Notes under the pieces: model-generated | Database searches by the model: none | What the model was told of the DNA's origin: nothing | Seen by the model: only the letters and a program-made list of their open reading frames with translations | NCBI RefSeq assembly: GCF_003075525.1 | Contig: NZ_QDDR01000005.1 | Span: forward strand, 124,001 to 188,000 | Direction of reading: 5' to 3' | Length of the DNA stretch: 64,000 nucleotides | From: Pararhodobacter aggregans | GTDB lineage: Bacteria; Pseudomonadota; Alphaproteobacteria; Rhodobacterales; Rhodobacteraceae | In this document: piece by piece, positions 47,471 to 64,000 of the stretch | Layout of the letters: every line of letters begins with the position of its first letter | Numbering within the stretch: position 1 is the stretch's first letter | Made by a program: the position numbers and the translations under genes

Positions 47471-47520
47471 GGGCCGTCCTCACCGGGCCGTCCTCACCGG
47501 ACCAGTACTCACCGGGCCAG
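47471..47520. repeat. short degenerate tandem repeat between convergent genes
   Basis: GGGCCGTCCTCACC occurs twice in tandem (47471-47498). GGACCAGTACTCACC and a partial GGGCCAGT copy follow. The last units encode the end of the acyl-CoA dehydrogenase, whose stop lies inside the repeat. Confidence 0.7.
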
Positions 47521-48642: not shown

Positions 48643-49218
48643 CGCGGGGCCCCCTTCGCATCGGCTGGACTGTGCCTTGCCGGTAATTTCCATACTGACT
48701 GGTAAGCAGGGGCGCCGCGGTAATCAACGGTTTCGGGTATCCTGCCGCGGATCGGTTCCGATCGACGCCTCGCCCTGCGCCCGGCCCGGCCCGGCCAGGC
48801 GCGAGGCCCTGCCCGAGCGGCTGCGCGGCGTGGGAATGACCCGGGGGCCGGTGATGGGGGGACGCCTCCGGGATCTGCGGGGCGCGGATCCCCGATCCCC
48901 TGCTGTCGGAGCGGGGCGGCAAGCAGCGCCGGGCGCTGATCGGGCAGGTCGTGGTCGACGGGTGCCGCGATATCAGGATTGCAACTTTCACGGCAGCATT
49001 GGCGCTGAATGAGCCGGGAAACTGGTACAAACCTGCGGAGCGGGTCAGCCGCGAGGAAACCTTGCGGCCCGTGGTGACGATGCCGATGCACGGGTAGCGA
49101 ACGAACGCCTGACATTGGCGCGGAGCGCGGGGCGGCGCCCGTATCGCTCCGGCCGCATGGATCATCGTCCGGGTGACCGGCAAAGCTTCCACCCCTCGGC
49201 GCGCCGGGGCTCCCCGTG
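48643..49218. other. gene-poor region, possible degraded coding remnant
   Basis: No intact gene is found in about 576 bp. A plus-strand open stretch at about 48900-49098 encodes LLSERGGKQRRALIGQVVVD and NEPGNWYKPAERVSREETLR, ending in a stop. It lacks a credible start and family match, and looks like a decayed 3' end. It separates the acyl-CoA dehydrogenase from the ABC importer. Confidence 0.4.
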
Positions 49219-50160
49219 TCAGCCCGCCTCGGCGAAATGACAGGCGACATCGTGACTGCCGACGCGGCGCAGTTCCGGCCGGGTTTCGGCGCATTCGGCG
49301 CGGGCGAGGGGGCAGCGGGTGCGGAACGGGCAGCCCGAGGGCGGGTTCACCGGGCTCGGCACATCGCCCTCCAGGATCGGGGCGTCATCCTGGCGCGCGG
49401 CCTCGTCCGGGATCGCGTTGATGAGGGCCCGGGTATAGGGGTGCAGGCGGTGGATCCAGACATCCTCGGCCGGGCCGATCTCGACGATGCGGCCCAGATA
49501 CATGACGGCGATGCGGTTGGCGATGTAGCGCACCACGGCCAGATCATGCGAGATGAAGAGATAGGAAAGCCCCAACTCCGTTTGCAGGTCCAGCAGCAGG
49601 TTCAGCACCTGCGCCTGCACCGAGACATCGAGGGCCGAGACCGCTTCGTCGCAGACCAGCAGGTTGGGGTTCAGGACCAGCGCCCGGGCGATGGAGACCC
49701 GCTGGCGCTGCCCGCCGGACAGTTCATGCGGCAGCCGTTCGAGGTGATAGGGCGAGAGGCCGACCTTCTGGGCGATGGCGAGCGCGGCGGCGCGGCGCTC
49801 GGCGCGGGTGCCGATGCCCGCGACCTGCAGCGGTTCGGTGATGATCCGCTCGACCGAGAGGCGTGGGTTGAGCGCGCCCCAGGGGTCCTGAAAGATCATC
49901 TGCACGTTGCGGGCCCGTTCCAGCCGGGTGGCGCGGGACGTGCCGGGATGCACGCCCTCGATGCTGAGCGTGCCGCCGGTGGGCGTCTGGATGCCGACGA
50001 TGCAGCGCGCGAGGGTCGACTTGCCGCAGCCGGATTCGCCGACCAGACCCAGAGTCTCGCCCTTGGCGATCTCCAGCGTGATGCCATCGACGGCCCGCAG
50101 CGGCCCCCGGGCGGTGGCGTGGTGAAGTTCCAGCGCCTCGGTTCTCAGGACGGCGTTCAT
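49219..50160 (-). CDS. peptide-type ABC importer ATP-binding protein (DppF/OppF-like)
   Basis: The 313-residue ATPase has Walker [17 protein letters not shown], signature LSGGQRQRVSIARAL, and Walker B LLVCDEAVSALD. The C-terminal oligopeptide extension (CPFRTRCPLARAECAE) can hold an iron-sulphur cluster in relatives. It is the last gene of the leftward operon and is coupled to its partner by an ATGA overlap. Confidence 0.92.
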   Translation of the reverse strand: MNAVLRTEALELHHATARGPLRAVDGITLEIAKGETLGLVGESGCGKSTLARCIVGIQTPTGGTLSIEGVHPGTSRATRLERARNVQMIFQDPWGALNPRLSVERIITEPLQVAGIGTRAERRAAALAIAQKVGLSPYHLERLPHELSGGQRQRVSIARALVLNPNLLVCDEAVSALDVSVQAQVLNLLLDLQTELGLSYLFISHDLAVVRYIANRIAVMYLGRIVEIGPAEDVWIHRLHPYTRALINAIPDEAARQDDAPILEGDVPSPVNPPSGCPFRTRCPLARAECAETRPELRRVGSHDVACHFAEAG

Positions 50161-51131
50161 GCGGTTTCTCCCTCGGTCAGCGGGAAATGGCAGCGCACGG
50201 CGCGGCCGGAGGCGGCGCGGTCCAGCGCCGGGCGTTCCGCCGCGCAGCGGGGGTGCGCTCGGGGGCAGCGGGCGCGGAAGACGCAGCCATCGGGCCTTGC
50301 GTCCGGGGCAGGGACCGAGCCCGCGATATCGGCCAGACGCGGGGTGCCGGCGGCGAAGCTGCCCTGCGGGCGGGCGGCGATCAGCCCGGCGGTATAGGGG
50401 TGGCGGGGGGCGTCCAGCACCGCGTCCACGCGCCCCTCCTCGACCACCGAGCCCGCGTACATGACCACGATCCGGTCGGCCACCTGCCGCACCACGCCCA
50501 GGTCATGGGTGATGAACAGCAGCCCCAGATTCTCCTCCCGCTGCAATTGCTTCAACAGCCGCAGGATCTGCGCCTGCACCGTCACGTCCAGCGCCGTCGT
50601 CGGCTCGTCGGCGATCAGCAGCGAGGGCGAGCAGGCCAGGGCGATGGCGATGACCACCCGCTGGCGCATCCCGCCCGACATCTGGTGCGGGTAATCGTCC
50701 AGCCGCGCCTCGGCATCGGGGATCTTGACCAGCGTCAGAAGATCCAGCGCCCGGTCCCGCGCCGCCCGCTGCGAGAGGCCGCGATGGGTGCGCAGGACCT
50801 CGGTGATCTGGCTGCCGATGGACATGACAGGGTTCAGCGCCGTCAGGGGTTCCTGAAAGATCATCCCCATCTTTTCGCCCCGCAGATGGCGCAGCCTGCG
50901 CTGGGGCAGGGACTGGATTTCCTGCCCTTCCAGCCGGATGCGCCCCTCGCGCACGCGCAGGTTCTCGGGCAGGAGGCCCATGATCGACAGCGCGGTCAGG
51001 GATTTGCCGCAACCGGATTCGCCGACCAGCCCGACCGTCTCGCCCCGCTCCACGCTCAGCGTCAATTCCTCGACGATGGGGGCGGCGCGGCCCGGTCCGA
51101 TGCGCAGGTTGTCGATGTGCAAGAGGCTCAT
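50157..51131 (-). CDS. peptide-type ABC importer ATP-binding protein (DppD/OppD-like)
   Basis: The 324-residue ATPase has Walker [17 protein letters not shown], signature [15 protein letters not shown], and Walker [15 protein letters not shown]. The C-terminal region has [14 protein letters not shown]. The start at 51131 overlaps the permease stop (ATGA); the longer upstream frame overlaps the permease gene and is not used. Confidence 0.92.
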
Positions 51132-51973
51132 TTCCGCTCCTTCAGGCGCGGGTTCAGGACGTCGTTCAGCGCGTCGCCGATCAGGTTCAGGGACATGACG
51201 GTCAGCACCAGCGCCACGGCGGGAACGGCGGTGAGATACCAGCCGTTGCGCAGTTCCTGCCGGCCGATGTTGAGGATCGTGCCCCAGCTCATGACATTGG
51301 GATCGCCCAGACCCAGGAAGGCAAGGCTCGCCTCGACGATGATCGAATTGGCGACCAGGACCGAGGCGGTGACGATGATCGGCGCCAGGCAATTGGGCAG
51401 GATCTGCTGGAAGACGATGCGCAGGTCGGACATGCCGATGATCTTGCACGATTGCACGAAGTCATAGGTCCGCAGCCGCAAGACATCGGCGCGCACCAGC
51501 CGGGCGATCATCGGCCAGGCGACGATGGCGATGGCGAAGGTGATGACCGGCAGCGAGGCGCCGATGATGCCGACGATGGCGATGGACAAAAGGAAATTCG
51601 GCACCGTCTGGAAGGCGTCGGTCAGGCGCATCAGCGCATCGTCGACCCAGCCGCCCCAATAGCCGGCGACGGCGCCCACCACCGTGCCGATGACCAGCGC
51701 CGCTGCGGCGGCCGAGACGCCGACCAGCAGCGAGACCCGCGCGCCGTAGAAGAGCGCCGGGATCAGGTCGCGTCCGAACGTGTCGGTGCCGAGCGGAAAG
51801 CGCGGGTCGGCGCCGGGCCAGAGGCGCGGCGGACCGGCCATGGTCCAGGGGCCGTCGGGGTACAGGAACCCCGCCAGCGCCGACATGGCGACGATGATGA
51901 CGATCAGCACCAGCCCGACAAGACCCGAGGGATGACGGGCAAGGCGGCCGAGGAGGGACAGCGCGCCCCTCAT
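51128..51973 (-). CDS. peptide-type ABC importer permease (DppC/OppC-like)
   Basis: The 281-residue protein has an N-terminal helix, PLGTDTFGRDLIPALFYGAR (typical of DppC), then five helices. The coupling loop is FVQSCKIIGMSDLRIVFQQI, and ALAFLGLGDPNVMSWG-like SLAFLGLGDPNVMSWGTIL follows. It starts by ATGA overlap with the DppB-like gene. Confidence 0.93.
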   Translation of the reverse strand: MRGALSLLGRLARHPSGLVGLVLIVIIVAMSALAGFLYPDGPWTMAGPPRLWPGADPRFPLGTDTFGRDLIPALFYGARVSLLVGVSAAAAALVIGTVVGAVAGYWGGWVDDALMRLTDAFQTVPNFLLSIAIVGIIGASLPVITFAIAIVAWPMIARLVRADVLRLRTYDFVQSCKIIGMSDLRIVFQQILPNCLAPIIVTASVLVANSIIVEASLAFLGLGDPNVMSWGTILNIGRQELRNGWYLTAVPAVALVLTVMSLNLIGDALNDVLNPRLKERK

Positions 51974-53016
51974 TTCAGGTTCACCCGCGGGTCGAGGACC
52001 ATATAGAGCATGTCGATCACGAAATTGACGATCACCACCGCCAGCGACGAGATGAAGACCACCCCGAGCAGCAGGTTGGTGTCGCGCTGGAAAACGGCGT
52101 CGAAGGCGGTGCGGCCCATGCCGGGCAGGCCGAAGATCGTCTCGATCAGCACGGCGCCGCCGAAGAGGGAACTCACTTGCAGCCCGGCCATGGTGACCAG
52201 CGGCAGCAGCGCGTTCCTCAGCGCATGCACGTAAAAGACGCGGCCCTCGGTCAGGCCCTTGCCCCGGGCGGTGCGGACGAAGTCGAGTTTCAGCACCTCC
52301 AGCATCGAGGCGCGGCCGATCCTGCCATAGATGGCGATGTAGAAGGTGCAGAGCGCGGTGACCGGCAGGATCAGATGCGCGGCCACGTCCTTGAGGTATG
52401 TGAGCCCGGTGTAGCCCATGCCGACGCTCTCGAACCCGGCGATCGGCAGCCAGCGCAGTTTCACCGCGAAGACCAGGATCAGCAGGATGGCGATGATGAA
52501 GCTGGGCGTGGCGTAGAGCAGCAGCATGAACATCGAGATGCCGAGGTCCACCGCCTTGCCCGCGAAGCGCGAGGCGAGGATGCCGAAGAGCGTGCCGATC
52601 ACCATGGACAGGCTGACCGAGCAGACGACCAGGATCGCGGTGACCGGCAGGCGGGCCAGGATCACATCCATGGCGGGCGCGGCATTGATCGGTGAATAGC
52701 CGAAGTCAAAGGTCGCCAAGAGCGCCATGTAGCGCAACAGCTGCACGAAGACCGACTGATCCAGCCCGTAGCGTTCGCGCAGGCCGGCGATCTGGTCGGC
52801 GGTCAGGTCGCGGGTTCCGGCCATGGCATCGACCATGTCGCCGGGGGCGAGCTTGACCAGCAGGAAGCTGCCGACCATGACCAGCATCATGACCAGCACG
52901 GCCTGCAACAGGCGGCGCAGGACATAGCGCAGGGCGGGTGACAGGCGGCGGGAGGGGGCCTTGGCAGGCCCCCTCCCGGTCGTGCCGGTCCCGGTCAGGG
53001 GGACGGGTTCGCTCAT
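51970..53016 (-). CDS. peptide-type ABC importer permease (DppB/OppB-like)
   Basis: The 348-residue protein has six helices. LRRLLQAVLVMMLVMVGSF and the DLTADQIAGLRERYGLDQSV periplasmic segment are typical of DppB. The coupling loop contains DFVRTARGKGLTEGRVFYVH. The start at 53016 overlaps the binding-protein stop (ATGA). About 30 extra residues precede the usual N-terminus. Confidence 0.92.
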   Translation of the reverse strand: MSEPVPLTGTGTTGRGPAKAPSRRLSPALRYVLRRLLQAVLVMMLVMVGSFLLVKLAPGDMVDAMAGTRDLTADQIAGLRERYGLDQSVFVQLLRYMALLATFDFGYSPINAAPAMDVILARLPVTAILVVCSVSLSMVIGTLFGILASRFAGKAVDLGISMFMLLLYATPSFIIAILLILVFAVKLRWLPIAGFESVGMGYTGLTYLKDVAAHLILPVTALCTFYIAIYGRIGRASMLEVLKLDFVRTARGKGLTEGRVFYVHALRNALLPLVTMAGLQVSSLFGGAVLIETIFGLPGMGRTAFDAVFQRDTNLLLGVVFISSLAVVIVNFVIDMLYMVLDPRVNLK

Positions 53017-54617
53017 TCTTCGATCCAGCACTGCTTCAGGCTGCCCAGCGCGCCCAGCGCATCGACCGTGTGGTCCTTGACGCGGACATTGGCGATGGTG
53101 GCCATCGAGATGTCGGTGACTTTCAGCACCGGCAGATCCTCGTAGGCGAGGCGCTGGAAGTCGGCGTATTCCTGCACGCGGGCGGCCTCGTCCGTCTCGA
53201 TGCTGGCGGCGTTCAGCAGCGCGTCGACCTCGGGGTTCACGTAATGCGCGCCGTTCGAGAAGCCGGTGCCGGGCAGGAAGCTGGCCGAGTTGTAGAACCG
53301 GTGCACGCCGATGGTCGGGTCCACGCCCATGGAGGCGGTATAGAGCGCGAGATCATGGGTGCGGTCGGTGTAGACGGTCTGCACGAAGACCGCGAAATCC
53401 TGGGTGCGGATCGTCACGTCGATGCCGACCTGGCGCAGCACTTCCTTGATGTAGCTGGCGGCGGTGATCGATTCCGTGCCCCAGGGCGAGGGGTCGAGGG
53501 TCAGCGCAAAGCGCATGCCGCCCGCGCCGCGGGGATAGCCCGCCTCGTCCAGGAGTTCATTGGCCCGCGCCGGGTCATAGGGGTAGGAGGGCACGCCCTC
53601 GGTGGTGAAATAGGCGCGCTGGTCGAAGTGCAGGGGCGAGCGGCCGGGCTGGCCCATGCCGTACCAGACGTTCTGGGTGATCCAGTTGACGTCGATGGCA
53701 TGGGCGATGGCGTGGCGCACCGTCTTGTTGGCGAGGATCTCGTTGTCGAGGTTGAAATCCATCTGCTGGGCCGAGGGCATGGCCTCGAACCCGTCGGTGG
53801 TCATCTCGAATTCCGGCAGTTCCGCCAGACGCAGGATTTCCTGCGCGGGGATCTGGTTGAGGAAGATGGCGTCGGCCTGACCCGATTCCAGCATGGCAAC
53901 GCGGGTCGCGGGATCGGCGATGTACTGGATGACCAGCCGGTCGAGGCGCGGGAAGCCCTCGTCCCAGTAATCGGGGTTCTTCACCATGACAACGTTGGCG
54001 CCGATCTCGTAGTTTTCCAGCAGGAAGGGGCCGGTGCCGACCGGGGCGGTGTTGACCGGGTTGGCCATGATGTCCGTCCCCTCGTAGAGGTGGGCGGGCA
54101 GGATCGGGCTTTCGCGGCTGTCGAGCGCGCGCATCAGCGCCGGCGTCGGGCGCGAGAGGTGGAAGATCGCGGTCAGATCATCGGGCGTTTCCACCGATTC
54201 CAGCGCGGCAAAGGTGGTGCGGCCGCGGCCGTGGTGAACCTTCAGCACCTCCATGAAGGTGAAGGCCACGTCACGCGCGGTGAAGGCCTCGCCATCGTGC
54301 CATTTCACCCCGTCGCGCAGCTTGAATTCGACGGTCAGCCCGTCGTCGGACATCGACCATTCGGTCGCCAGCGAGGCCTTCGGCACCATGCCGTACTCAT
54401 AGCCCAGCAAGCCGTCGTAGAATTTGGGCGAGAGGAAGCTTTCCGGCCCGCCGGTCGAGACGGCCGAGTTCAGGAAGGTCGGCGCGGGCCAGGCCGGGGT
54501 GCGCAGCACGCCGCCCGAGGTCTGGGCCAGCGCCCGGCGCGACCCCGCCATGACGGCGGGCACGACCCCGGCGGCGGCGAGGGTCGACAGGAAGGAACGG
54601 CGGTTCATCGTGGTCAT
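53013..54617 (-). CDS. periplasmic substrate-binding protein, peptide/nickel type (SBP_bac_5)
   Basis: The 534-residue protein begins with a Tat-type signal (NRRSFLSTLAAAGVVPAVMAG, RR motif at residues 5-6). It then shows VEFKLRDGVKWHDGEAFTARDVAFT, the hallmark of family 5 binding proteins. It would deliver the substrate of this operon to the membrane permeases. Family 5 proteins bind peptides, opines, glycosides and other compounds; the ligand here is unknown. Confidence 0.93.
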   Translation of the reverse strand: MTTMNRRSFLSTLAAAGVVPAVMAGSRRALAQTSGGVLRTPAWPAPTFLNSAVSTGGPESFLSPKFYDGLLGYEYGMVPKASLATEWSMSDDGLTVEFKLRDGVKWHDGEAFTARDVAFTFMEVLKVHHGRGRTTFAALESVETPDDLTAIFHLSRPTPALMRALDSRESPILPAHLYEGTDIMANPVNTAPVGTGPFLLENYEIGANVVMVKNPDYWDEGFPRLDRLVIQYIADPATRVAMLESGQADAIFLNQIPAQEILRLAELPEFEMTTDGFEAMPSAQQMDFNLDNEILANKTVRHAIAHAIDVNWITQNVWYGMGQPGRSPLHFDQRAYFTTEGVPSYPYDPARANELLDEAGYPRGAGGMRFALTLDPSPWGTESITAASYIKEVLRQVGIDVTIRTQDFAVFVQTVYTDRTHDLALYTASMGVDPTIGVHRFYNSASFLPGTGFSNGAHYVNPEVDALLNAASIETDEAARVQEYADFQRLAYEDLPVLKVTDISMATIANVRVKDHTVDALGALGSLKQCWIEE

Positions 54618-54782
54618 GGGTTTTCTCCAGGCAGCGGGACGCAGGGGATGAGGATGGCCGCGCAGGGCCGGTGACGGCGGGGTGGGCGAACGGGACGGGA
54701 GCGGCCCCGTTCGCCCGGTTTTGCCCGAGGGGCCGGGCAGGCAGGCGCGCCGCGGCTTGCGGGACACGGCGCGCGGTAAGGA

Positions 54783-56102
54783 TCAGGTCGCGGGAACGGG
54801 GCCTTTCCTGGCTGGGTTGCGGTCGGCCAGCAGCGCGCCCAGCTGGCCCGCGATGGCGATCAGGCGACGGTCGGTGTAGCGCGGCCCGGTCAGCGTCAGC
54901 CCGACCGGCAGGCCATGGGGGCCGCGCAGGCCCGGAACGTTGACGCAAGGCATGTGCAACAGCGTCCAGATCCGGTTGAAGGTGGCGGCGCCGGTGTTGT
55001 CGGGGCCGAGGGGCGCCTCGCCCGGGGTCGAGGGGGTCAGCACCGCGTCGAAGGGTCGGGCGAGGCGGTCGAACTCGGCCCGGCAGGCGGCGGCGAGGTC
55101 GAGCGCGGCCAGAAGATCGGCGCGGCTCTCGCCCCGCTCGTTCTTCAGGATGCCGACCAGCTCGGGATAGAGCGCGTCGCCGAGGCGCCGGTAATCGGCG
55201 AGGAAGGCGGTGCGCATCTCGGCCTGCATGACGATGCGATGCGCCTCGGTCAGGCCGTCGAAGGCGGGGGGCAGGTCCAGCATCGTGACCTCGGCCCCGG
55301 CGGTGCGCAGGCGGGTCTCGGCCTCGGCCATGGCGGCGAGGGTGGCGGGTTCGGCCTTGTCCCAGACAGGGCTGCGGCAAATGGCGATCCGGGCGCCGGT
55401 GAGTGTCGCCGGGGCGGGCAGGGCCTCGATGCCGAAGACCTCGGCCAGCAAGTCCAGATCGGCGGCCGAGCGGGCGTACCAGCCCAGCGTGTCGATGCTG
55501 GCGGCGCAGACCTTGAAACCCTCGTGGCTGACCAGGTTCCAGGTCGGCTTGATGGCATAGACCCCGCAATAGGAGGCGGGCCGGATCACCGAGCCGCCGG
55601 TCTGGGTGCCGAGGCTCACGGGCACCTGCCCGTCCGCCACCGCCGCCGCCGACCCGGACGACGAGCCGCCGGGGGTACGGGCCGGGTCATGCGGGTTGGT
55701 GGTGGCGGCGCGGCGGCCGTTCACGGCGAATTCCACCGTGTCGTTCTTGCCCATCATCACCGCGCCCGCCTGCCGCAGGATGGCCACCGCGGCGGCATCC
55801 ACATTCGGCCAATGGTCCTGAAAATGCGGGGAATTCAGGCTGGTCGGCATGTCTTCGGTGGCGATGATGTCCTTGACGCCGACCGGCAGGCCCTGCAGCG
55901 GGCCGGGGCGCGCGTGCTCGGCCCGGGTCAGCGCCGCCTCGGGGTCGAGATGGGTCCAGGCCCGCACCACCGCATCGCGCTCGCGCCAGCGGTCGAGGCA
56001 GGCGGCCATCAGCCCGCGCGCCGTCAGCTGACCGCCGGCGATGCGCGCTAGCGCCTCGCCGGCGGTCAGCCAATTGGGCGTGGGGGCGTGGGGCACCGTC
56101 AT
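54783..56102 (-). CDS. amidase signature family enzyme
   Basis: The 439-residue hydrolase has the Ser-cisSer-Lys triad pattern: Lys in GVKDIIATEDMPT, the glycine/serine run GGSSSGSAAAVADG, and the nucleophile in GTQTGGSVIRPA. It hydrolyses a linear amide, carbamate-like or peptide-like bond in the cytoplasm. The start at 56102 joins it to the stop of the first deacetylase-like gene. GatB/GatC genes are absent, so it is not a tRNA amidotransferase subunit. Confidence 0.92.
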   Translation of the reverse strand: MTVPHAPTPNWLTAGEALARIAGGQLTARGLMAACLDRWRERDAVVRAWTHLDPEAALTRAEHARPGPLQGLPVGVKDIIATEDMPTSLNSPHFQDHWPNVDAAAVAILRQAGAVMMGKNDTVEFAVNGRRAATTNPHDPARTPGGSSSGSAAAVADGQVPVSLGTQTGGSVIRPASYCGVYAIKPTWNLVSHEGFKVCAASIDTLGWYARSAADLDLLAEVFGIEALPAPATLTGARIAICRSPVWDKAEPATLAAMAEAETRLRTAGAEVTMLDLPPAFDGLTEAHRIVMQAEMRTAFLADYRRLGDALYPELVGILKNERGESRADLLAALDLAAACRAEFDRLARPFDAVLTPSTPGEAPLGPDNTGAATFNRIWTLLHMPCVNVPGLRGPHGLPVGLTLTGPRYTDRRLIAIAGQLGALLADRNPARKGPVPAT

Positions 56103-57034
56103 CAGGCGATCCCCAGACCCTGCCACTGGCTGCGGATTTCCTCGCCGGTGGCCGAGGCCACGCCGTCCGCTTTCAGGAACCGGCCCAGCAGCCGGTCCAG
56201 CGCGTCGATGCGGCCGGGTTGGGCGATGATCCAGGGCGACAGCGACAGGGACAGGATCCGCCCGCCCCGGGTCCGGCTTTCATCGAGCAGCACGTCGAAA
56301 GCCGCGTCGAGCTGGTATTCGTAATCGCCGATCGGCATGTTCTGCAGGCCGAGGATCTTGTGATCCGACAGGTCGTAGCTGAGCGGCAGCTGGGTCAGGT
56401 CGCCCGCCGGCGTGTGGAAGGCATAAGGCAGGTCGTCGTTGATCCAGTCGCAGATGTACTTCGCTCCCGCTTCCGCCACGAGGTCAGGCGTCACGGCGGA
56501 TTGCGAATGGGCAGGGGAATGCCAGCCGGTGACCGCCTGCCCCGAGGCGGCGCGGAGGGTGGAGAAGGCCTCGCCAACCAAGGCCCTCTCCTCTTCCACG
56601 GAGAGCCGGGAATGGTGCAGATGCCCCATGTCCACGCCCGCCGCCGCGACTTCCCAACCGCGCTTCAATACCTCGTCCATCAGATGCGGATAGCGGGGCG
56701 CCAGCGCCGCGTTCATCGCCGCCGTCGCCTTGACGCCGTGCTTGTCCAGCACCCGGAACAGCCGCTCGATCCCGACCCGGTTGCCGTAATCCCGCGTCGA
56801 GTAATCCCAGACAGAAGGATAGGGCCGGTCCATGCCGCCGATCGGCTTGACCGGGCTTGCCGGCATGTCCATCGGGAAATGTTCCAGATGCACGCAGGCC
56901 CAGACCAGAAGCGTCTTGCCGCCCTGCCACTGGAACGACGGCACATCGCGCAGATAGCGCGCGGCGTAGCGGTCGTGGTCCATGCCCTTGCGACGCAGCG
57001 GATAGTCGAAATAGCTGTCGGGGATCAGGCTCAT
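56102..57034 (-). CDS. polysaccharide-deacetylase-family (PuuE/CE4-like) protein A, catalytic motif degenerate
   Basis: The 310-residue protein has the family layout: WDYSTRDYGNRVGIERLFRV, GVKATAAMNAALAPRYP, and SGQAVTGWHSPAHSQS. Where relatives and its neighbour carry an S-H-G motif, it reads AAAGVDMGH. The GLHH pair later in MGHLHHSRLS might substitute. It lies next to a paralogue (57031-57960) with ATGA overlap, so the two may form a complex. Confidence 0.82.
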   Translation of the reverse strand: MSLIPDSYFDYPLRRKGMDHDRYAARYLRDVPSFQWQGGKTLLVWACVHLEHFPMDMPASPVKPIGGMDRPYPSVWDYSTRDYGNRVGIERLFRVLDKHGVKATAAMNAALAPRYPHLMDEVLKRGWEVAAAGVDMGHLHHSRLSVEEERALVGEAFSTLRAASGQAVTGWHSPAHSQSAVTPDLVAEAGAKYICDWINDDLPYAFHTPAGDLTQLPLSYDLSDHKILGLQNMPIGDYEYQLDAAFDVLLDESRTRGGRILSLSLSPWIIAQPGRIDALDRLLGRFLKADGVASATGEEIRSQWQGLGIA

Positions 57035-57960
57035 GCTTGGGCCTCCGCGGTGAAGGGCTGCATCCACGCGGTGAAGCGGTCGTAGTAATGCGCCTCGAAA
57101 TGCGCGGCGATCTCGCGGCCCGTCGCCAGCCAGACCTTGTCGTGGCCGGTGACGTATTTCAGCGCCTCGTCGAGGATATGCAGCCGGTGCGGCTGGCCGA
57201 TCAGGTAGGGATGCAGCGGCACGCACATCACGGTGCCGGATTCCTCGCCCTCGGCATAGAGCCGGTCGAAGTGGTTCTTGATGATTTCCAGATAGTTGCG
57301 CGGCGAGATATTCTTGAAGTTCAGCACCGGCACGTCGTTGCATTCCATCATGTAGGGAACGCTGACCAGACGGTTGGTGCTGCGGGTCTTCACCGGCATC
57401 GGCTGGTCATCGTGGAACAGATCGAGCGTGTACTTGATCCCCTCCTCGGCCAGCAGGTCCTGCGTCGTCTCGCCGTTCGAGATGGCGGGCGAGAGCCAGC
57501 CGTCCAGATCCTGACCCGAGGCGCGTTTGATCGTCTCGCGCGACTGGCGGATGATCTCGCGCTGCTGGTCCTCGGTCATGTTGTAGAGGTAGCGGGTGTT
57601 GTAGATGCCGTGGCTGAACAGCTCCCACTCCAGTTCGCAGCAGCGCTCGATGATCTCGGGGAAATGGTCGCAGACCGCGACATTGAGCGAGACCGAGCCC
57701 CGCACGCCGTATTTCGCCATGACATCGGCCATCCGGTCAAAGCCGACCCGGTTGCCGTAATCGCGCATCGAATAATTGATGATGTCGGGTTCCGGGCGAT
57801 ACCAGACCTCGCGGGTGGGCGAAGGGGGCGGCATCATCTCGTAGAATTCGATGTTCGGGGCCACCCAGAAGGCCACCCGCGCGCCGTTCGGCCATTCGAT
57901 TTTCGGCCGACCCGCGTAGGGGGCGTAATCGTAGCTGTAGGGTTCGCGCCATTTGGTCAT
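57031..57960 (-). CDS. polysaccharide-deacetylase-family (PuuE/CE4-like) protein B
   Basis: The 309-residue protein matches its paralogue: NYSMRDYGNRVGFDRMADVM, GVRGSVSLNVAVCDHFPE, and SGQDLDGWLSPAISNGETTQ. It keeps the ELFSHGIYNTRYL motif of PuuE-like hydrolases. PuuE is a metal-independent or weakly metal-dependent allantoinase that opens a cyclic ureide, so a ring-opening or C-N hydrolysis role is plausible. It lies 2 bp after the isochorismatase-type gene. Confidence 0.86.
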   Translation of the reverse strand: MTKWREPYSYDYAPYAGRPKIEWPNGARVAFWVAPNIEFYEMMPPPSPTREVWYRPEPDIINYSMRDYGNRVGFDRMADVMAKYGVRGSVSLNVAVCDHFPEIIERCCELEWELFSHGIYNTRYLYNMTEDQQREIIRQSRETIKRASGQDLDGWLSPAISNGETTQDLLAEEGIKYTLDLFHDDQPMPVKTRSTNRLVSVPYMMECNDVPVLNFKNISPRNYLEIIKNHFDRLYAEGEESGTVMCVPLHPYLIGQPHRLHILDEALKYVTGHDKVWLATGREIAAHFEAHYYDRFTAWMQPFTAEAQA

Positions 57961-57962
57961 GG

Positions 57963-58634
57963 TCAGGTCTCCTGCGCGCGCGCGGCCAGCTGGGCGAGAA
58001 CCTCGTCCAGGGGCTTCACGTCGCCGTATTTGAAAGCGATGTCGTAGAGGTTGGCGAAATGGGCGCCTTCCTCGCGGTCGGCGACCGTCTCCTCGGGCAC
58101 GCAGACGTGATAGCCGAGGGACAGCGCATCCATCACCGTGCCCCGCACGCAGCCCGAGGTGGCGCCGCCGGTGACGATCACGGTGTCGATGCGGTGCCAG
58201 TTCAGATAGCTGGCCAGATGCGTCTCGAAAAAGCACGAGGACATGCGCTTGTGCAGTGTCAGGTCGCCGTCCCGGATGTCGAGCCTCGGGTCCAGTTCCG
58301 CCTGCGGGCTGTCGTGGCCGACCTTGTGCAGCGCCCATTCGGTCGTCGACAGCCGCGACCACATCCCGGCATCCGAGCCATCGGGCAGATAGGCGACATA
58401 GGCCCAGACCACCGGCCCGCCCAGGTTGCGCACCGCGGCGGCCAGCGCATTCACGCCCTCGAACTGGCGCGGATGGCCGTCATAGGCGGTGGGGAAAGTC
58501 GCCGTATCGGTGTAGCGGCGCTGCAGATCGACGTTGATCTGCGCGATCCGCTGGCCAAGCCCCCGTTCCGGCACCCTCGGCGCGGCCTGATAGTCGCGGA
58601 AGATCTGTTTCGAGGTCTTGTCGGTGGGGATCAT
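57963..58634 (-). CDS. isochorismatase-family cysteine hydrolase (N-carbamoylsarcosine amidase-like)
   Basis: The 223-residue protein has the Asp-Lys-Cys triad: Asp in QINVDLQRRY, Lys in LTLHKRMSSCFFETHL, and the nucleophile in VTGGATSGCVRGTVMDAL. The TSGCVR form is that of N-carbamoylsarcosine amidase rather than isochorismatase. Such enzymes cut ureido or carbamoyl groups to release ammonia and CO2. The substrate is not determinable from sequence. Confidence 0.86.
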   Translation of the reverse strand: MIPTDKTSKQIFRDYQAAPRVPERGLGQRIAQINVDLQRRYTDTATFPTAYDGHPRQFEGVNALAAAVRNLGGPVVWAYVAYLPDGSDAGMWSRLSTTEWALHKVGHDSPQAELDPRLDIRDGDLTLHKRMSSCFFETHLASYLNWHRIDTVIVTGGATSGCVRGTVMDALSLGYHVCVPEETVADREEGAHFANLYDIAFKYGDVKPLDEVLAQLAARAQET

Positions 58635-58638
58635 GGCC

Positions 58639-59373
58639 TCAATCCCGGATCATGGCGAGCGGCGCGCCATGGGTGAGGCGCGTGTCGAACTCGCGGTCAC
58701 TGCCGCCCGAGAGCGCGGCCTTGACCATGCCGCCGCCGCTGCGGCCCAGAGGGGTGGAGAGCGGCAGCACCTCGACCCAGACCCTGCCGAAATCGAAGCG
58801 GCCCGGTGCGGTTTCCCGCCCGCCCAGCGCTTTCAGGGTCCGGCCCACCGCTGCCGGGTTGCCGGTCGAGAGCGACAGACCCGCGATCCCCGTCGCGCCG
58901 TTCGCGTGCGGGACGGGGGCGGGGATGCGGGCCGGGCGGCCCTCGACGTCCGAGACCACGAAGGGCAGGGATACGTCGCCCTCGGCGCCGCGGCCGGTCA
59001 GCGTCAGCTCCAGCGCCCAGCGGCTGCCATCGGCGATGACATTCGAGACCGGCACCGGGCCGCGCACCGGCAGGCCCTCGGCCTTGAGCGCGTCGGCGGC
59101 GTCTGCGGCGGAGGGGACGGTGAAGCTCCAGTCGGCCCAGCCCTCGCCCGCGGTCAGCACCTCGCCCAGACGGTGGCTCGCCTGCCCCTCGGCCGAGGTG
59201 AAGGCGGTCAGCAGGATGTAGCTGCCATCGTCGAAGCAGACGAAGCGGAACTGCGTCTTGCCGTGTTCGGTATCGGCGCGCTCCTGCACCGTGAAGCCCA
59301 GCGCGGCGAAGTCGCGCGCGGCGGCGTCGAGGTCGTGGACGAGCAGGACGAGATGGTCGAAGGGCAGGGACAC
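58639..59373 (-). CDS. glyoxalase-like (VOC superfamily) protein
   Basis: The 244-residue protein opens with PFDHLVLLVHDLDAAARDF and has GFTVQERADTEHGKTQFRFV, followed by FDDGSYILL, the Glyoxalase_3 pattern. A second, more diverged repeat occupies the C-terminal half (GIAGLSLSTGNPAAVGRTLK). It may isomerise, open or protect an intermediate of the pathway. It lies 2 bp after the molybdoenzyme gene. Confidence 0.8.
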   Translation of the reverse strand: MSLPFDHLVLLVHDLDAAARDFAALGFTVQERADTEHGKTQFRFVCFDDGSYILLTAFTSAEGQASHRLGEVLTAGEGWADWSFTVPSAADAADALKAEGLPVRGPVPVSNVIADGSRWALELTLTGRGAEGDVSLPFVVSDVEGRPARIPAPVPHANGATGIAGLSLSTGNPAAVGRTLKALGGRETAPGRFDFGRVWVEVLPLSTPLGRSGGGMVKAALSGGSDREFDTRLTHGAPLAMIRD

Positions 59374-59375
59374 GG

Positions 59376-61661
59376 TCAGTCTTCTTTCGCTTGGATCGGA
59401 GGGGGCGCGGTCACCCGCAGGGGCGGCAGGGGCCCGTCGTGGCGGGCGACCTCGACCAGGCAGGATTGCGCGGCGCAGCCCTGGCCCAGTTCCGAAGTGC
59501 CGATGTCGCGGGTCAGCACATTGGGGTTGGACGAACGGTCCGTCAGCCCGTCCGGGTCATAGGTGGCACCCGTGGGCAGGACCACGACACCGGCCATCAG
59601 CCCGGGGTCGATCCGGGCGATGGCGAAACAGGCGCCCCGCGCGTTGAAGACGCGCAGCGCATCGCCCTCGGCAATGCCGCGCGCGGCGGCATCGGCCGGG
59701 TTGATCTGCAACAGCTCGCGGTCCTGCACCTTGCCCGCCCGGGAATAGGCCGAGAAATCCATCTGCCCGTGCAGCTTGCGCTTGGGCTGCGGGGTCAGCA
59801 GGTGCAGGGGGGCGGCATCCGTCGCGCGGCCCAGCCATTCCTCGGGGTCCAACCAGACCGGGTGCCCGGGTTGGCCGGGTTCCGCCGCGGCCTGAGCCGA
59901 GAAAAGCTCGATCCTGCCCGAGGGGGTCGACAGCGGATGCGCCACCGGATCGGCGCGGAAATCCGACAGCATGACGTAGCTTTCCTGCGGCTCGGGCATC
60001 GCCAGATAACCCTGGGCGCGGAAATCCTCGTAGGTCGGCACGTTGACGCCGCGGGCGGCGAGGTTGGTGCTGATCCGGCTCCAGGCCCAGTCCAGCCAGT
60101 CGTCGCTGCTGCGCCCCTCGGTAAAGGCCTCGGCATCGCCGAGCCGCCGCGCCAGCGCGGCGAAGATGTCATAATCGTCGCGGGCGTATTCATGGGGGGC
60201 GACCAGCTTCTGCATCGCCAGAAGGTAGCGATCGCGCGAGGCGCCGCCGATATCGTCGCGCTCCAGCGTCACGGTGGCCGGGAAGACGATATCGGCATGG
60301 CGCGCGGTGGCGGTCCAGTAGCCCTCGTTCACGATCACCGTCTCGGGCCGGCGGAAGGCCTCGCGCAGGCGGTTGAGGTCCTGGTGGTGATGGAACGGAT
60401 TGCCGCCCGCCCAATAGACCAGCTTCACCTCGGGATAGACCCGCGTCTCGCCATCGTAGCGGTATTCAGCACCCGGGTTCAGCAGCATGTCGGCGACGCG
60501 CGCGCAGGGGATCGACAGGCCTGTGGCGTTGGGGATCCCCGGCAGGCCGTAGAGCGGCGTGCGGTATTCGGGGTTGCCCATGGCGTTGGACGAGCCGTAG
60601 CCGAAGGCGAAACCGCCGCCCGGCAGGCCGACCTGACCCAGCACGCAGGCGAGCGCGATGGCCGCCCAATAGGGCTGTTCGCCATGCCGCGCGCGTTGCA
60701 GCGACCAGTTGAGCGAGACCATGACCCGCTTGCCCGGCAGCGCCCGGCCCAGATCGCGGATCGTCGCGGCGGGGATGCCGGTGATCGTTTCGGCCCATTC
60801 CGGCGTCTTGGGCGTGCCATCGGTCTTGCCCGCCAGATAGTCGAGATAGGGCTGCGCGTCATTCACATGGCTGGTCAGGAAGGCGCGGTCTGCCTTGCCC
60901 TCGGCCACGACAACCTGCGCCAGCGCCATGAGCAGCGCGGCATCGGTATTGGGCCGCACCGGCAGCCATTCGATGCCGAATTTCTCTTCGATGTCCTCGC
61001 GGCAGGGCGAGATGTTGACGGCCCGCACCCGCCCGGTCACGCCCGCCATGAAGCTGTCGTAGCGATGTTCGCCGACGCCGCCCGCCTGGATTTCCCAGTT
61101 CTTCAGCGGCAGGCCGCCGAAGGCCAGGAAGATGTCGCAATGCTCGCGGATCGAGGCGGCCGAGGTCAGCGAGGCGCCGATCATGTCGCGCCCGACGATG
61201 CGCGGGACGAAGGCCATCGCCGCGCCATAGGAATAATTCGTCTCCTGATCCACATGCCCGCCGATGGCGCCGAAGAAGCGGCGCACCAGGGTGCGGGCGT
61301 GGTGGATGCGCCCGGCGCTGGACCAGCCGTAGCTGCCGCCGAAAAGCGCGCCATTGCCATGGGTCGCGCGGATCCGGCCGATCTCGGCCGCGGCGAGGTC
61401 AAGCGCCTCGTCCCAGCCGAGCGCGACATAGCTGTCCTCGCCCCGGGCCGCGCCCTTGTCGCCGGACAGCCAGCCCTTGCGGGCCACCGGCTGCGCCACG
61501 CGCAACGGATGATCCAGCATTTCCGGCCAGACCCCGGTCATGCCCGAGGGGCGGGGGTCGTGCTCGAAAGGCAGGATCCGGCGCAGCCTGCCGCCCTCGA
61601 CCTCGGCGCGAAACGCCCCCCAATGCGAGGCGTTCAGAGGCAGGGAGGAGGCAGCGGACAT
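59376..61661 (-). CDS. molybdopterin oxidoreductase, biotin sulfoxide/DMSO/TMAO reductase family
   Basis: The 761-residue enzyme starts with SHWGAFRAEVEGGRLRRILP and has no twin-arginine signal, so it stays in the cytoplasm like BisC. GGSYGWSSAGRIHHART holds the serine that ligates molybdenum in the DMSO reductase branch. ETNYSYGAAMAFVPRIVG, WGGNPFHHHQDLNRL-like WAGGNPFHHHQDLNRLREA, and a C-terminal cofactor domain (LHGQMDFSAYSRAGKVQ) follow. It should reduce an S-oxide or N-oxide with two electrons. No electron-donor subunit is nearby; BisC-type enzymes use soluble donors. It is the first gene of the leftward operon. Confidence 0.92.
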   Translation of the reverse strand: MSAASSLPLNASHWGAFRAEVEGGRLRRILPFEHDPRPSGMTGVWPEMLDHPLRVAQPVARKGWLSGDKGAARGEDSYVALGWDEALDLAAAEIGRIRATHGNGALFGGSYGWSSAGRIHHARTLVRRFFGAIGGHVDQETNYSYGAAMAFVPRIVGRDMIGASLTSAASIREHCDIFLAFGGLPLKNWEIQAGGVGEHRYDSFMAGVTGRVRAVNISPCREDIEEKFGIEWLPVRPNTDAALLMALAQVVVAEGKADRAFLTSHVNDAQPYLDYLAGKTDGTPKTPEWAETITGIPAATIRDLGRALPGKRVMVSLNWSLQRARHGEQPYWAAIALACVLGQVGLPGGGFAFGYGSSNAMGNPEYRTPLYGLPGIPNATGLSIPCARVADMLLNPGAEYRYDGETRVYPEVKLVYWAGGNPFHHHQDLNRLREAFRRPETVIVNEGYWTATARHADIVFPATVTLERDDIGGASRDRYLLAMQKLVAPHEYARDDYDIFAALARRLGDAEAFTEGRSSDDWLDWAWSRISTNLAARGVNVPTYEDFRAQGYLAMPEPQESYVMLSDFRADPVAHPLSTPSGRIELFSAQAAAEPGQPGHPVWLDPEEWLGRATDAAPLHLLTPQPKRKLHGQMDFSAYSRAGKVQDRELLQINPADAAARGIAEGDALRVFNARGACFAIARIDPGLMAGVVVLPTGATYDPDGLTDRSSNPNVLTRDIGTSELGQGCAAQSCLVEVARHDGPLPPLRVTAPPPIQAKED

Positions 61662-61729
61662 GCGAGTTTCCCGACTGGAAGGGGGCAGGCGGCCCCGATT
61701 GATGAGACGCTAGGACATAATATTTTGTG

Positions 61730-61749
61730 CGTCAACAATCCTATTGACG
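61730..61749. promoter_or_regulatory. divergent promoter region with LysR-type inverted repeat
   Basis: CGTCAA and TTGACG form a perfect 6-bp inverted repeat with 8 bp between, in the 184 bp between the molybdoenzyme and LysR genes. The surrounding sequence is AT-rich (TTATGTTATGTTAG at 61753-61766). This is the expected location for a LysR box serving both directions. Confidence 0.5.
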
Positions 61750-61845
61750 ACACTTATGTTATGTTAGACCTTCTGGGAGTGAGGGCAGGGCGCCGCCTAT
61801 TTTTTGTGCATTCTCCCCAAGTGCTTGCGGGAAAGGACAGCCTCA

Positions 61846-62763
61846 GTGAACCGGTTCAACGTCAGACAGATCGAGGCCTTCCGGGCGGTCATCACCCTGG
61901 GAAGCATGACCAAGGCTGCGGAATCATTGGGTATTTCTCAGCCCGCCGTGTCCCGCCTGATGCTGGATTTCCAAGAGGCCGTCGGCTTCAAACTGTTCCG
62001 CAAATCGCGCGGCGGGGCCGAGCCGACCGAGGATGCGCGCCGCCTTTTTGTGCTGGTCGACAAATTCTTCGTCGGGCTCGAGGAGATGAATCAGGAGGTC
62101 CACGCGATTCGCTCGCTGGCCAGCGGCACGGTGACGATCGCCGCGCAGGGCCCTTACGACAACGGTCTGATCCCCGAGGTGGTGGCGCTATTCCGCAAAC
62201 GCTATCCCGACATCGCCATCCGGCTGGAAAGCCAGCCGCAGGACCGGATCGCCGAATGGATCGCCTCGCGCCGGGCCGATATCGGCATCGTCTCGCTGCC
62301 GATTTCCAGCGCCGCGGTGACGGTGCGCGAACTGGTGAAGATGCCCGCGCTCTGCGTGCTGCCCGCCGGTCATCCTCTGGCCGAGAAAGCCGCGATCAAG
62401 GCCGAGGATCTGGCCGACGAAAGCTTCGTCAGCTTCCCGCGCGGCGCGCCCTTCCGCTTCGAGACCGATATCCTGTTCGAGAAGAAGGGCATCGACCGGC
62501 GCATGCTGACCGAGGCCACGACGCATGAATCGGTCTGCAATCTGGTCGCGGCGGGGCTGGGCGTGTCCATCGTCAGCCCCTATTCGCCGCATCTGCGGCG
62601 CAATCCCCGCCTTGAATTCCGTCCCTTCACCCCGGCCATGCCGATCTCGCTGGGCATGATCTGCAGCGAGGATTCGCTCTCGGTCGCGGCCCAGGCCTTC
62701 CACGATTTCGTGCTCAGCCGGACCGACGCCTACAAGGCCGCGCTGGAACGCGCCGCCAGTTGA
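61846..62763 (+). CDS. LysR family transcriptional regulator
   Basis: The 305-residue protein has the winged helix RQIEAFRAVITLGSMTKAAE and SLGISQPAVSRLMLDFQEAV, then a periplasmic-binding-type effector domain (GTVTIAAQGPYDNGLIPEVV). It starts with GTG behind GGAAAGGA. It is divergent from the molybdoenzyme operon and 21 bp upstream of the FAD oxidoreductase gene, so it probably activates both. The effector would be an intermediate of the pathway. Confidence 0.93.
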   Translation: MNRFNVRQIEAFRAVITLGSMTKAAESLGISQPAVSRLMLDFQEAVGFKLFRKSRGGAEPTEDARRLFVLVDKFFVGLEEMNQEVHAIRSLASGTVTIAAQGPYDNGLIPEVVALFRKRYPDIAIRLESQPQDRIAEWIASRRADIGIVSLPISSAAVTVRELVKMPALCVLPAGHPLAEKAAIKAEDLADESFVSFPRGAPFRFETDILFEKKGIDRRMLTEATTHESVCNLVAAGLGVSIVSPYSPHLRRNPRLEFRPFTPAMPISLGMICSEDSLSVAAQAFHDFVLSRTDAYKAALERAAS

Positions 62764-62784
62764 TCGCAAACCACAGGATGCCCC

Positions 62785-64000
62785 ATGAACGCTGAGTTCC
62801 CCCCCACTGCCGACTTCTCCGTTGTCCCGCTCGAGACCGAGGTGGTGATCGTCGGCGGCGGCATCGTCGGCGTCTCGACCGCCTTGTTCCTGGCGCAGAA
62901 GGGCGTGCCGGTGGTGCTGTGCGAAAAGGGCACGCTGGGCGAGGAGCAATCGGGCCGCAACTGGGGTTGGGTGCGCAAGATGGGCCGCGACCCGCGCGAA
63001 GTGCCGCTGATGAAGCATGCGATGGACCTCTGGGGCCGCATGCAGCAGATGGTCGGCGCCGATGTCGGCTTCCGGGTGCGCGGCATCACCTATTTCGTCA
63101 ATGAAGAGCCGGATCTGGTCCGCTACGAGGCCTGGATGAAGGAGGTCGCGCAATTCGGCCTCGACACCCGCTGGGTTTCCAAGGCCGAGATCAACAGTTT
63201 CGTCCCCGGCGCCACGCGGCAATTCGGCGGCGGTCTGCACACGGCCTCGGACGGGTTCGCCGAGCCGCATATCGCCACGAAACTGATCGGCCGGGGCGCC
63301 GCCAGGCTGGGCGCCCGGATCATCGAGGGCTGCGCCGTGCGCGGCTTCGAGACCGAGGGCGGGCGGGTGAGCGAGGTGGTGACCGAAAAGGGCCGCATCA
63401 AGTGCAAGCATGTGGTCTTGGCGGGGGGGATCTGGTCGTCGCTCTTTGCCCGGTCGGTCGATGTGAAGATGCCGCAGCTGAAGATGCTGAGCCAGGTGAT
63501 GCGCACCCGGCCCATTTCAGGCGGGCCGCAGGGCTGCGGCTCGGGCCCCGGCTTCGGTTTCCGCGAGCGGCTGGACGGCGGCTACAACGTCGGCATGCGC
63601 TCGGCCCATCCGGTCGATATCGTGCCCGACAGCTTCCGCTACCTGAAGGATTACGTCCCGGCGCTGAAGAACGAATGGCGGGCGATGAAATTCCGCATCG
63701 GGCGCCGGACGTTCCAGGAGGTCGGGATGGAAAAGGGCTGGCGGCTGGACCAGCGTTCGCCCTTCGAGAAATACCGCATCATGCGGCCCGAGCCGGGGCA
63801 CAGCATCCTCGATCAGGCAACCGTCAACATCAAGAAATTGTTCCCGCAGTTCAGGGACATGGTGGTGAACGAGCGGATGTCGGCCTGGATCGACGTTTCG
63901 CCCGACGCGATCCCGGTGATCTCGCCGGTCGAGGCGATTCCGGGTTTCTACATCTCGACCGGCTATTCCGGCCACGGCTTCGGCATCGCCCCGGCGGCGG
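62785..64000 (+). CDS. FAD-dependent oxidoreductase (DadA/sarcosine-oxidase-like), 3' end cut by window
   Basis: About 405 codons are in the window. The dinucleotide-binding motif VVIVGGGIVGVSTALFLAQK is followed by GEEQSGRNWGWVRKMGRDPR, and near the C-terminus SAWIDVSPDAIPVISPVEAI and GFYISTGYSGHGFGIAPAA. This is the D-amino-acid/sarcosine/glycine-oxidase branch (DAO family). It would oxidise an amine to an imine with FAD, consistent with deaminating or demethylating the product of the neighbouring hydrolases. It runs off the window edge. Confidence 0.9.
   Translation, partial: MNAEFPPTADFSVVPLETEVVIVGGGIVGVSTALFLAQKGVPVVLCEKGTLGEEQSGRNWGWVRKMGRDPREVPLMKHAMDLWGRMQQMVGADVGFRVRGITYFVNEEPDLVRYEAWMKEVAQFGLDTRWVSKAEINSFVPGATRQFGGGLHTASDGFAEPHIATKLIGRGAARLGARIIEGCAVRGFETEGGRVSEVVTEKGRIKCKHVVLAGGIWSSLFARSVDVKMPQLKMLSQVMRTRPISGGPQGCGSGPGFGFRERLDGGYNVGMRSAHPVDIVPDSFRYLKDYVPALKNEWRAMKFRIGRRTFQEVGMEKGWRLDQRSPFEKYRIMRPEPGHSILDQATVNIKKLFPQFRDMVVNERMSAWIDVSPDAIPVISPVEAIPGFYISTGYSGHGFGIAPAA

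Follow-up and report, generated by a model that had tools for sequence, protein, structure and literature searches.

The 64,000-nucleotide stretch of Pararhodobacter aggregans DNA analysed here (contig NZ_QDDR01000005.1, positions 124,001 to 188,000 of the forward strand; the window, in what follows) carries near its right end a row of catabolic genes. Reading the open reading frames (ORFs) and assigning families with NCBIfam and Pfam, we find 11 packed genes that point leftward between 49219 and 61661, from whose molybdoenzyme end a LysR and a DAO gene diverge rightward. A sequence-only reading of the same DNA had counted nine leftward genes; the actual number is 11, and the row lies where it had been placed, with the families it had named. 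The full system is a core of 15 genes: the leftward 11 together with LysR, DAO, a sulfurtransferase and a lyase, the last two lying beyond the window. Each enzyme falls in a known superfamily. What does such a set of enzymes degrade?

Read from left to right, all on the minus strand, the row begins with a family-5 ATP-binding cassette (ABC) importer recognized from its ORFs and relatives: an OppF/DppF-type ATPase (49219-50160, 63-78% identical in relatives), an OppD/DppD-type ATPase that overlaps it by four bases (50157-51131), a DppC-type permease (51128-51973) and a DppB-type permease (51970-53016). These are followed by the solute-binding protein (SBP_bac_5; 53013-54617; PF00496, E 6e-85). 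Then come an amidase-signature amidase (AMD; 54783-56102; PF01425, E 1.5e-64), two PuuE-like proteins that we call PuuE2 (56102-57034) and PuuE1 (57031-57960), an isochorismatase-superfamily cysteine hydrolase (CHase; 57963-58634), a VOC protein assigned by Pfam to Glyoxalase_3 (58639-59373) and a molybdoenzyme of the BisC/DMSO reductase family (59376-61661). Counted from OppF, the junctions measure -4, -4, -4, -4, +165, -1, -4, +2, +4 and +2 bases. Nine of the ten thus overlap or lie within four bases, much as had been described; the exception is the 165 bases between the amidase and the binding protein of the importer. On the plus strand the LysR-type regulator occupies 61804-62763 (start TTG at 61804, alternatively GTG at 61846) and the DAO-type FAD oxidase 62785-64116, its last 116 bases falling outside the window and its end being taken from the genome contig. 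Both stand where the divergent pair had been predicted.

How widely does this arrangement occur? No marker of the full system is more specific than the VOC protein, which is found in four of 394 genomes of the family (its own, G603, G018 and G689) and in one of 385 genomes of the class, again its own; with an E-value limit of 1e-60, PuuE1 is present in seven of 198 family genomes. All 15 system genes are found in G018 (loci L011 and L012), G689 (L111), Chelativorans (L022) and Corticibacterium (L023). Pararhodobacter CCB-MM2 (L020) has ten of the 15 as far as its contig end, with L110 of G603 treated as the same contig, identities being equal, and L021 is a fragment with five system genes. LysR is 63-82% identical in the syntenic relatives. 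Plasmid pPABY2 of Salipiger abyssi carries all 15 families (45-73% identical), rearranged and accompanied by extra genes: an FMN monooxygenase of the NtaA/DmoA family (L118:8110-9447) and a HyuAB pair (L113:17427-21390) that is annotated as hydantoinase/oxoprolinase and matches caprolactamase subunits below cut-off. Genes in relatives are mechanical ORFs picked by score, and some neighbours may be miscalled.

The gene order is therefore not unique to this strain, an outcome that would have spoken against the sequence-only reading. An arrangement that recurs in other genera and is reordered on a plasmid is more than chance, and 15 families that stay together despite such rearrangement are good evidence for a common function. 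The idea of one set with its own dedicated importer is supported in the sense that importer and enzymes are co-inherited. We found no account of the gene set, or of a pathway built on PuuE1, PuuE2 and CHase, in the open-access literature, which is weak evidence, subscription papers lying mostly outside that scope; the remark that no matching pathway was known agrees with this result.

The two genes outside the window change the likely substrate class. The relatives carry, adjoining or neighbouring DAO, a rhodanese resembling 3-mercaptopyruvate sulfurtransferase and a cystathionine beta-lyase; this holds for G018, G603/L020, G689, L022, L023 and Salipiger, whereas L021 is too short to reach them. 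The orthologs in P. aggregans lie on the same strand as DAO at C5:194057-194896 (sulfurtransferase) and C5:194860-196068 (lyase), 6-8 kb past the window and about 6 kb past DAO, and are 73% and 70% identical to their G018 counterparts. The lyase exceeds the TIGR01324 cut-off of 365.9 bits in all four genomes scored (own 474.2, G018 444.4, L022 484, L020 453). Together the two enzymes give the system a cysteine or thioether theme that is invisible from the window alone.

The space between LysR and the molybdoenzyme holds an operator-like inverted repeat (61716-61763), of the form CATAATATTT-N4-CGTCAA with an inverted copy. Its core elements ATAA, TTT, GTCAA and TTAT are invariant in all six genomes aligned. 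A search of the 5.08-Mb genome for the half-site with up to two mismatches returned two matches, one in each orientation and both at this operator, and the reversed control returned none; a match with three mismatches lies elsewhere in the window. Because the only two genome matches both sit between the divergent arms, the analysis supports one local regulon for the two arms, with the operator itself putative. A promoter scan gave no match, and the terminator count was at chance level.

The PuuE pair was followed through many genomes. Using PuuE1 as bait in genome contigs we obtained at least 573 related stretches, retained the best 80 and added four from family genomes; the resulting 84 loci are selected, not random, and together with the window they fall into 41 clusters when PuuE1 identity is set at 90%. 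Four loci with more distant PuuE pairs (L016-L019) are excluded from the counts. Both proteins score far below the cut-off of the PuuE allantoinase model TIGR03212 (424.6 bits), PuuE1 at 126.7 and PuuE2 at 90. In PuuE1, residues E38, H117, D184, D185 and H250 align with the active site of PuuE allantoinase, and all five positions are retained in 85 of 85 sequences, the window included. PuuE2 has taken another course: in the window A132 and S266 replace both of the PuuE histidines. Both sites can be read in 81 of 84 PuuE2 sequences, which come from 83 loci and the window; at least one histidine is lost in 63 of the 81, and both in 36. The window protein and those of seven further system carriers (L011, L020/G603, L021, L022, L023, G689 and Salipiger) have neither histidine.

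The two proteins nevertheless travel together. PuuE2 lies directly after PuuE1 in 83 of the 84 loci, the exception, L038, being cut by a contig end. A tree of 81 pairs separates them into two clades with support 1.0, and their distances correlate at 0.93 (81 pairs) as against 0.72 and 0.79 with CHase (57 loci), even as PuuE2 diverges more (mean distance 0.48, compared with 0.34 for PuuE1). Within this tree the carriers (the window, L011 and L020-L023; G689 and Salipiger stand outside it) form a PuuE1 clade with support 0.999 and a PuuE2 clade with 0.997, and carrier proteins that are monophyletic on each side fit a single origin. Since PuuE2 adjoins PuuE1, forms its own clade, co-varies with its neighbour and has lost histidines while PuuE1 keeps its active site, we think it probable that the pair forms one heteromeric ring hydrolase acting on a cyclic amide or imide, in which PuuE1 would be the catalytic and PuuE2 the structural, non-catalytic subunit. 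Two separate PuuE steps, as the linear order of reactions in the sequence-only reading would have it, are less likely in view of the 83 of 84 adjacent pairs, the separate clade, the co-variation and the histidine loss in carriers, and that order is not supported. At L008 (G196:C35:36928-37827) a PuuE1-like match contains one internal TGA; the ORF reading suggests that the gene has its own stop and that the match runs past it.

What would act on the opened ring? The nearest solved relative of CHase is N-carbamoylsarcosine amidohydrolase (26st, E 4.3e-34), followed by 4l07/4l08, 1nba and 3ot4/3uao; 4l07 and 3uao we take to be maleamate amidases. The D36/K129/C162 triad is present in 59 of 60 CHase sequences, the sixtieth being cut at the aspartate, and a DIxxKYGDV stretch is common to CHase, 26st and 4l07. 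CHase reaches no NCBIfam cut-off, and the amidase falls below the cut-off of every NCBIfam model listed for it, 25 of 26. For the VOC protein, the Foldseek search ranked 3p8a at the top of the best 50 of 859 matches, most of the others being HPPD entries. The structural model behind it is weak (mean predicted local distance difference test score, pLDDT, 63.6; the other four models score 36-52), so we draw no function from the fold.

The molybdoenzyme aligns with TIGR00509 over positions 1-767 of 772 at 840.1 bits, and its nearest solved structure is the DMSO (dimethyl sulfoxide) reductase 1eu1 (E 1.1e-176), with which it shares GGSYGW and the serine that follows. The Tyr/Trp/Ser stretch comprises active-site residues of DMSO reductase, and the tyrosine favours S-oxides. 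Residue 5 aligns with residue 47 of the precursor-numbered DMSO reductase; an alignment that starts so far in speaks for the lack of an export leader, in keeping with the earlier assignment to a cytoplasmic S/N-oxide reductase family. The nearest solved relative of DAO is 5fjm, an L-amino-acid deaminase (E 3.4e-79); a chain named sarcosine oxidase is more distant (E 2.5e-37).

These relationships bear on the substrates that the sequence-only reading had in mind, namely a pathway for creatinine, biotin sulfoxide or methionine sulfoxide. The BisC family, the DAO family and the likeness of CHase to N-carbamoylsarcosine amidase all fit. Creatinine, however, needs neither the sulfurtransferase nor the cystathionine beta-lyase, and DAO is nearer to L-amino-acid deaminase than to sarcosine oxidase. 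No creatininase, creatinase or creatinine deiminase appears among the nine proteins scanned with Pfam, the rest of the genome not having been searched, so the proposed creatinine hybrid finds no support. Biotin, conceivable in itself, would offer the lyase no alpha-amino acid. We judge this group of substrates highly improbable.

The importer could in principle point to peptides. In DppA and OppA an aspartate anchors the peptide amine. At the column of DppA D436/OppA D445 the binding protein has methionine in the window and in three orthologs and alanine in Salipiger; adding G689 to the alignment leaves all six system proteins with a gap at this column. In none of three alignments does an aspartate stand opposite the anchor, although the column shifts with the sequences included. 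With no aspartate opposite the anchor, the usual peptide binding looks unlikely, a soft point. There is also a distant match to the glutathione-binding GsiB (142.4 bits, the cut-off being 594), and with a family-5 importer, an amidase, a lyase and an S-oxide reductase at hand one might imagine general salvage of peptides or of glutathione conjugates in the manner of mercapturates: the S-conjugate would be imported, the amidase would deacylate it, the lyase would split it, and PuuE1/PuuE2 and CHase would work on the other half. This we consider unlikely. Besides the absent anchor, in its uncertain column, no gamma-glutamyl or cysteinylglycine peptidase family was detected among the same nine Pfam-scanned proteins.

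Further clues to the ring come from bacteria that carry the CHase-PuuE1-PuuE2 module in other surroundings. CHase lies near PuuE1 in 59 of the 84 loci. Among the 25 without it, six offer less than 2.2 kb of upstream sequence and 19 show no CHase at the sensitivity used. A LeuC-, LeuD- or PrpB-like gene stands near the module in 24 of 84 loci, in 17 of 41 clusters and in 15 of the 40 loci that have 5 kb of sequence to either side, all of these being raw counts, uncorrected for background. The LeuC-like representative passes the general aconitase/isopropylmalate-dehydratase subfamily cut-offs and fails LEU2 and leuC; the LeuD-like one passes the ordinary leuD cut-off. The PrpB-like lyase falls below the prpB cut-off, with 4iqd, the petal death protein and methylisocitrate lyases as its nearest relatives and 3fa3 after them. 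An FAD dehydrogenase, MmgE/PrpD, an Asp/Glu-racemase-like protein, a LIV-type transporter and a CoA-transferase also recur, in 7-17 of the 84 loci each; with a score of 375, the representative CoA-transferase falls short of the succinate-glutarate cut-off of 750. Annotated records of Burkholderia plantarii plasmid p1 and Sphingomonas plasmid pJE1 show the same neighbour genes, and Agrobacterium pAt1D1108a has the PuuE pair and an amidase with no CHase annotated nearby. Among the best 10 of 25 open-access literature matches for strain JE1, the host of pJE1, no relevant growth substrate was found.

A dicarboxylate product would suit a hydratase and a malate-type lyase, and an imide would then be hydrolysed upstream of them; the module's neighbours thus suggest chemistry that leads from a cyclic imide to a dicarboxylate. 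We considered and rejected a LeuCD/lyase branch of this kind in the window genome, which has only one PrpB-like gene (42%) and 27-38% matches to the LeuC-like protein, all of them weak and of an ordinary kind. In a separate group of loci (L054, L067, L072, L084, L091, L095 and others, mostly from Comamonadaceae) a third PuuE-like paralogue lies downstream of PuuE2. Several of these also have a second, BiuH-like isochorismatase and Asp/Glu/hydantoin-racemase-like, PhyH-family and MmgE/PrpD genes; they probably serve a related but different substrate.

Drawing on families and genome context for every step, and on computed gene content, synteny and the conservation of residues and operator, we propose that the system imports and degrades a small molecule, probably not a peptide, that combines a thioether of the cysteine type, which may often occur as the S-oxide, with a five-membered cyclic imide or hydantoin. 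We regard this proposal as falling just short of probable. The family-5 importer would take the compound up, and the cytoplasmic BisC-type molybdoenzyme would reduce the S-oxide to the thioether. The PuuE1/PuuE2 heteromer would then open the ring at the imide nitrogen, CHase would hydrolyse the resulting half-amide or N-carbamoyl group, and the amidase would remove a further amide. The cystathionine beta-lyase homologue could then cleave the freed S-substituted cysteine, or DAO could deaminate it, and the sulfur of 3-mercaptopyruvate would go to the sulfurtransferase. LysR, acting at one conserved operator, may control the divergent arms.

Several observations weigh against this proposal. PuuE2 retains both histidines in 18 of the 81 sequences, and the role of the VOC protein in the pathway is unexplained. 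The molybdoenzyme lies under the TIGR00509 cut-off (1017.55 bits), and the sulfurtransferase under the NF008557 cut-off of 250 bits in all four cases scored (own 235.0, G018 228.7, L022 248.4, Salipiger 210.2). The argument from the binding protein is soft in that its anchor residue is methionine, alanine or a gap depending on the alignment. In L022 and L023 the strand that encodes the sulfurtransferase and lyase is not that of DAO, and these two genes do not have to be under the control of the operator. In P. aggregans itself a five-gene cassette separates DAO from the sulfurtransferase and lyase (L001:2148-8014, or 64147-70013 on the window scale). It encodes an SDR protein, an APH-type kinase, an acyl-CoA dehydrogenase, an acyl-CoA ligase and a family III CoA transferase; it was not found between DAO and the two sulfur genes in relatives and is left out of the core. 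The pairing of kinase and dehydrogenase resembles LvaA/LvaC and ACAD10/11, which act on 4-hydroxyacyl-CoA (PMC12440821).

Two last points concern the ring. The HyuAB-like and NtaA/DmoA-like genes of Salipiger indicate that it may be a lactam or a hydantoin rather than an imide. Against a pure imide, too, a gene upstream of the module in Neoroseomonas alba (L058:4275-5348) exceeds the RutA cut-off, with 550.5 against 498.3 bits. Genes similar to it are also seen in L034 and L038, only the L058 copy having been scored. HyuAB and the L058 gene also favour a hydantoin that is substituted at position 5 and built on a sulfur amino acid (S-alkylcysteine or methionine, in S-oxide form). PuuE1/PuuE2 would open it and CHase would decarbamoylate the product, leaving the amino acid to the lyase and DAO. 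PuuE allantoinase does act on a hydantoin, and an enzyme whose nearest solved relative hydrolyses N-carbamoylsarcosine would suit the second step. Such a substrate would leave the extra amidase unexplained, as well as the LeuC-, LeuD- and PrpB-like genes of 24 of the 84 loci, and we hold it to be possible but rather doubtful.

If a thioether joined to an imide or hydantoin is the right class, where might it come from? One conceivable source is the tetrapyrroles. The CHase-PuuE1-PuuE2 module might be a bacterial route for the maleimide and succinimide remains of chlorophyll, heme and bilins, with the 15-gene system of the window as the branch for a thioether-bound ring; we think this very unlikely. 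In operons of the LeuCD/PrpB type, free alkylmaleimides would pass through alkylmaleates and alkylmalates to pyruvate and an acid. Hematinic acid would yield pyruvate and glutarate, an outcome in keeping with the genes for a CoA-transferase and an acyl-CoA dehydrogenase that lie near some modules. In phycobiliproteins and c-type cytochromes the pyrrole ring is bound by a cysteine thioether, and from such a source the window system would import a cysteinyl-imide, reduce the sulfoxide, hydrolyse the ring and cleave the C-S bond. This cysteine-bound form rests on chemistry rather than data.

Two neighbours of the row stand apart from all this. An acyl-CoA dehydrogenase gene (47509-48693, minus strand), about 525 bases past the end of the importer, is excluded from the conserved system. 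At 45557-47461 on the plus strand are overlapping frames that by eye resemble the dTDP-rhamnose genes RmlD and RmlA and are unrelated to the catabolic row.

The full system is rare, yet its parts cohere across genera and through rearrangement on a plasmid. Such cohesion points to a pathway that is probably still undescribed and whose substrate class can be tested. The CHase-PuuE1-PuuE2 module within the system is more widespread, and in the annotated plasmid records examined the PuuE pair has only the generic labels 'polysaccharide deacetylase' or 'hypothetical protein'. Should PuuE1 and PuuE2 prove to be a heteromer that hydrolyses cyclic imides, the annotation of many such genes would have to change, and experiments could ask directly what becomes in bacteria of natural imides, among them the maleimides derived from chlorophyll and heme.

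How does the system compare with those already known? Its importer has the five-gene layout of the Dpp and Opp importers, with a binding protein, two permeases and two ATPases; its binding protein differs from DppA and OppA in that no aspartate was found opposite the amine anchor, in a column that is itself uncertain. The molybdoenzyme resembles the BisC/DMSO reductases in its near full-length match to TIGR00509 and 1eu1 and in GGSYGW. It differs in scoring below the cut-off and in its setting, an operon of hydrolases in which no gene of the row encodes a membrane or cytochrome partner. CHase shares with the N-carbamoylsarcosine and maleamate amidases the Asp-Lys-Cys triad and the DIxxKYGDV stretch, a likeness by sequence alone.

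Nicotinate fermentation includes a branch of dimethylmaleate hydratase and dimethylmalate lyase, and the modules of other bacteria share with it LeuCD-like and PrpB/dimethylmalate-lyase-like genes, which are absent from the window operon. With PuuE allantoinase (TIGR03212; 3cl6) the window system shares the family and, in PuuE1, the E, H, DD and H positions; where the allantoinase and the cyclic imidases are single proteins, the window has an adjacent pair whose second member lacks the histidines. For the opening of imides by PuuE-type enzymes there is precedent in CIH of Pseudomonas putida and in HxnM of Aspergillus nidulans. HxnM is described as related to PuuE-type proteins and is proposed to act as a cyclic imidase, its half-amide product passing on to an amide hydrolase (PMC9304392); its likeness to the window proteins is one of description rather than of sequence.

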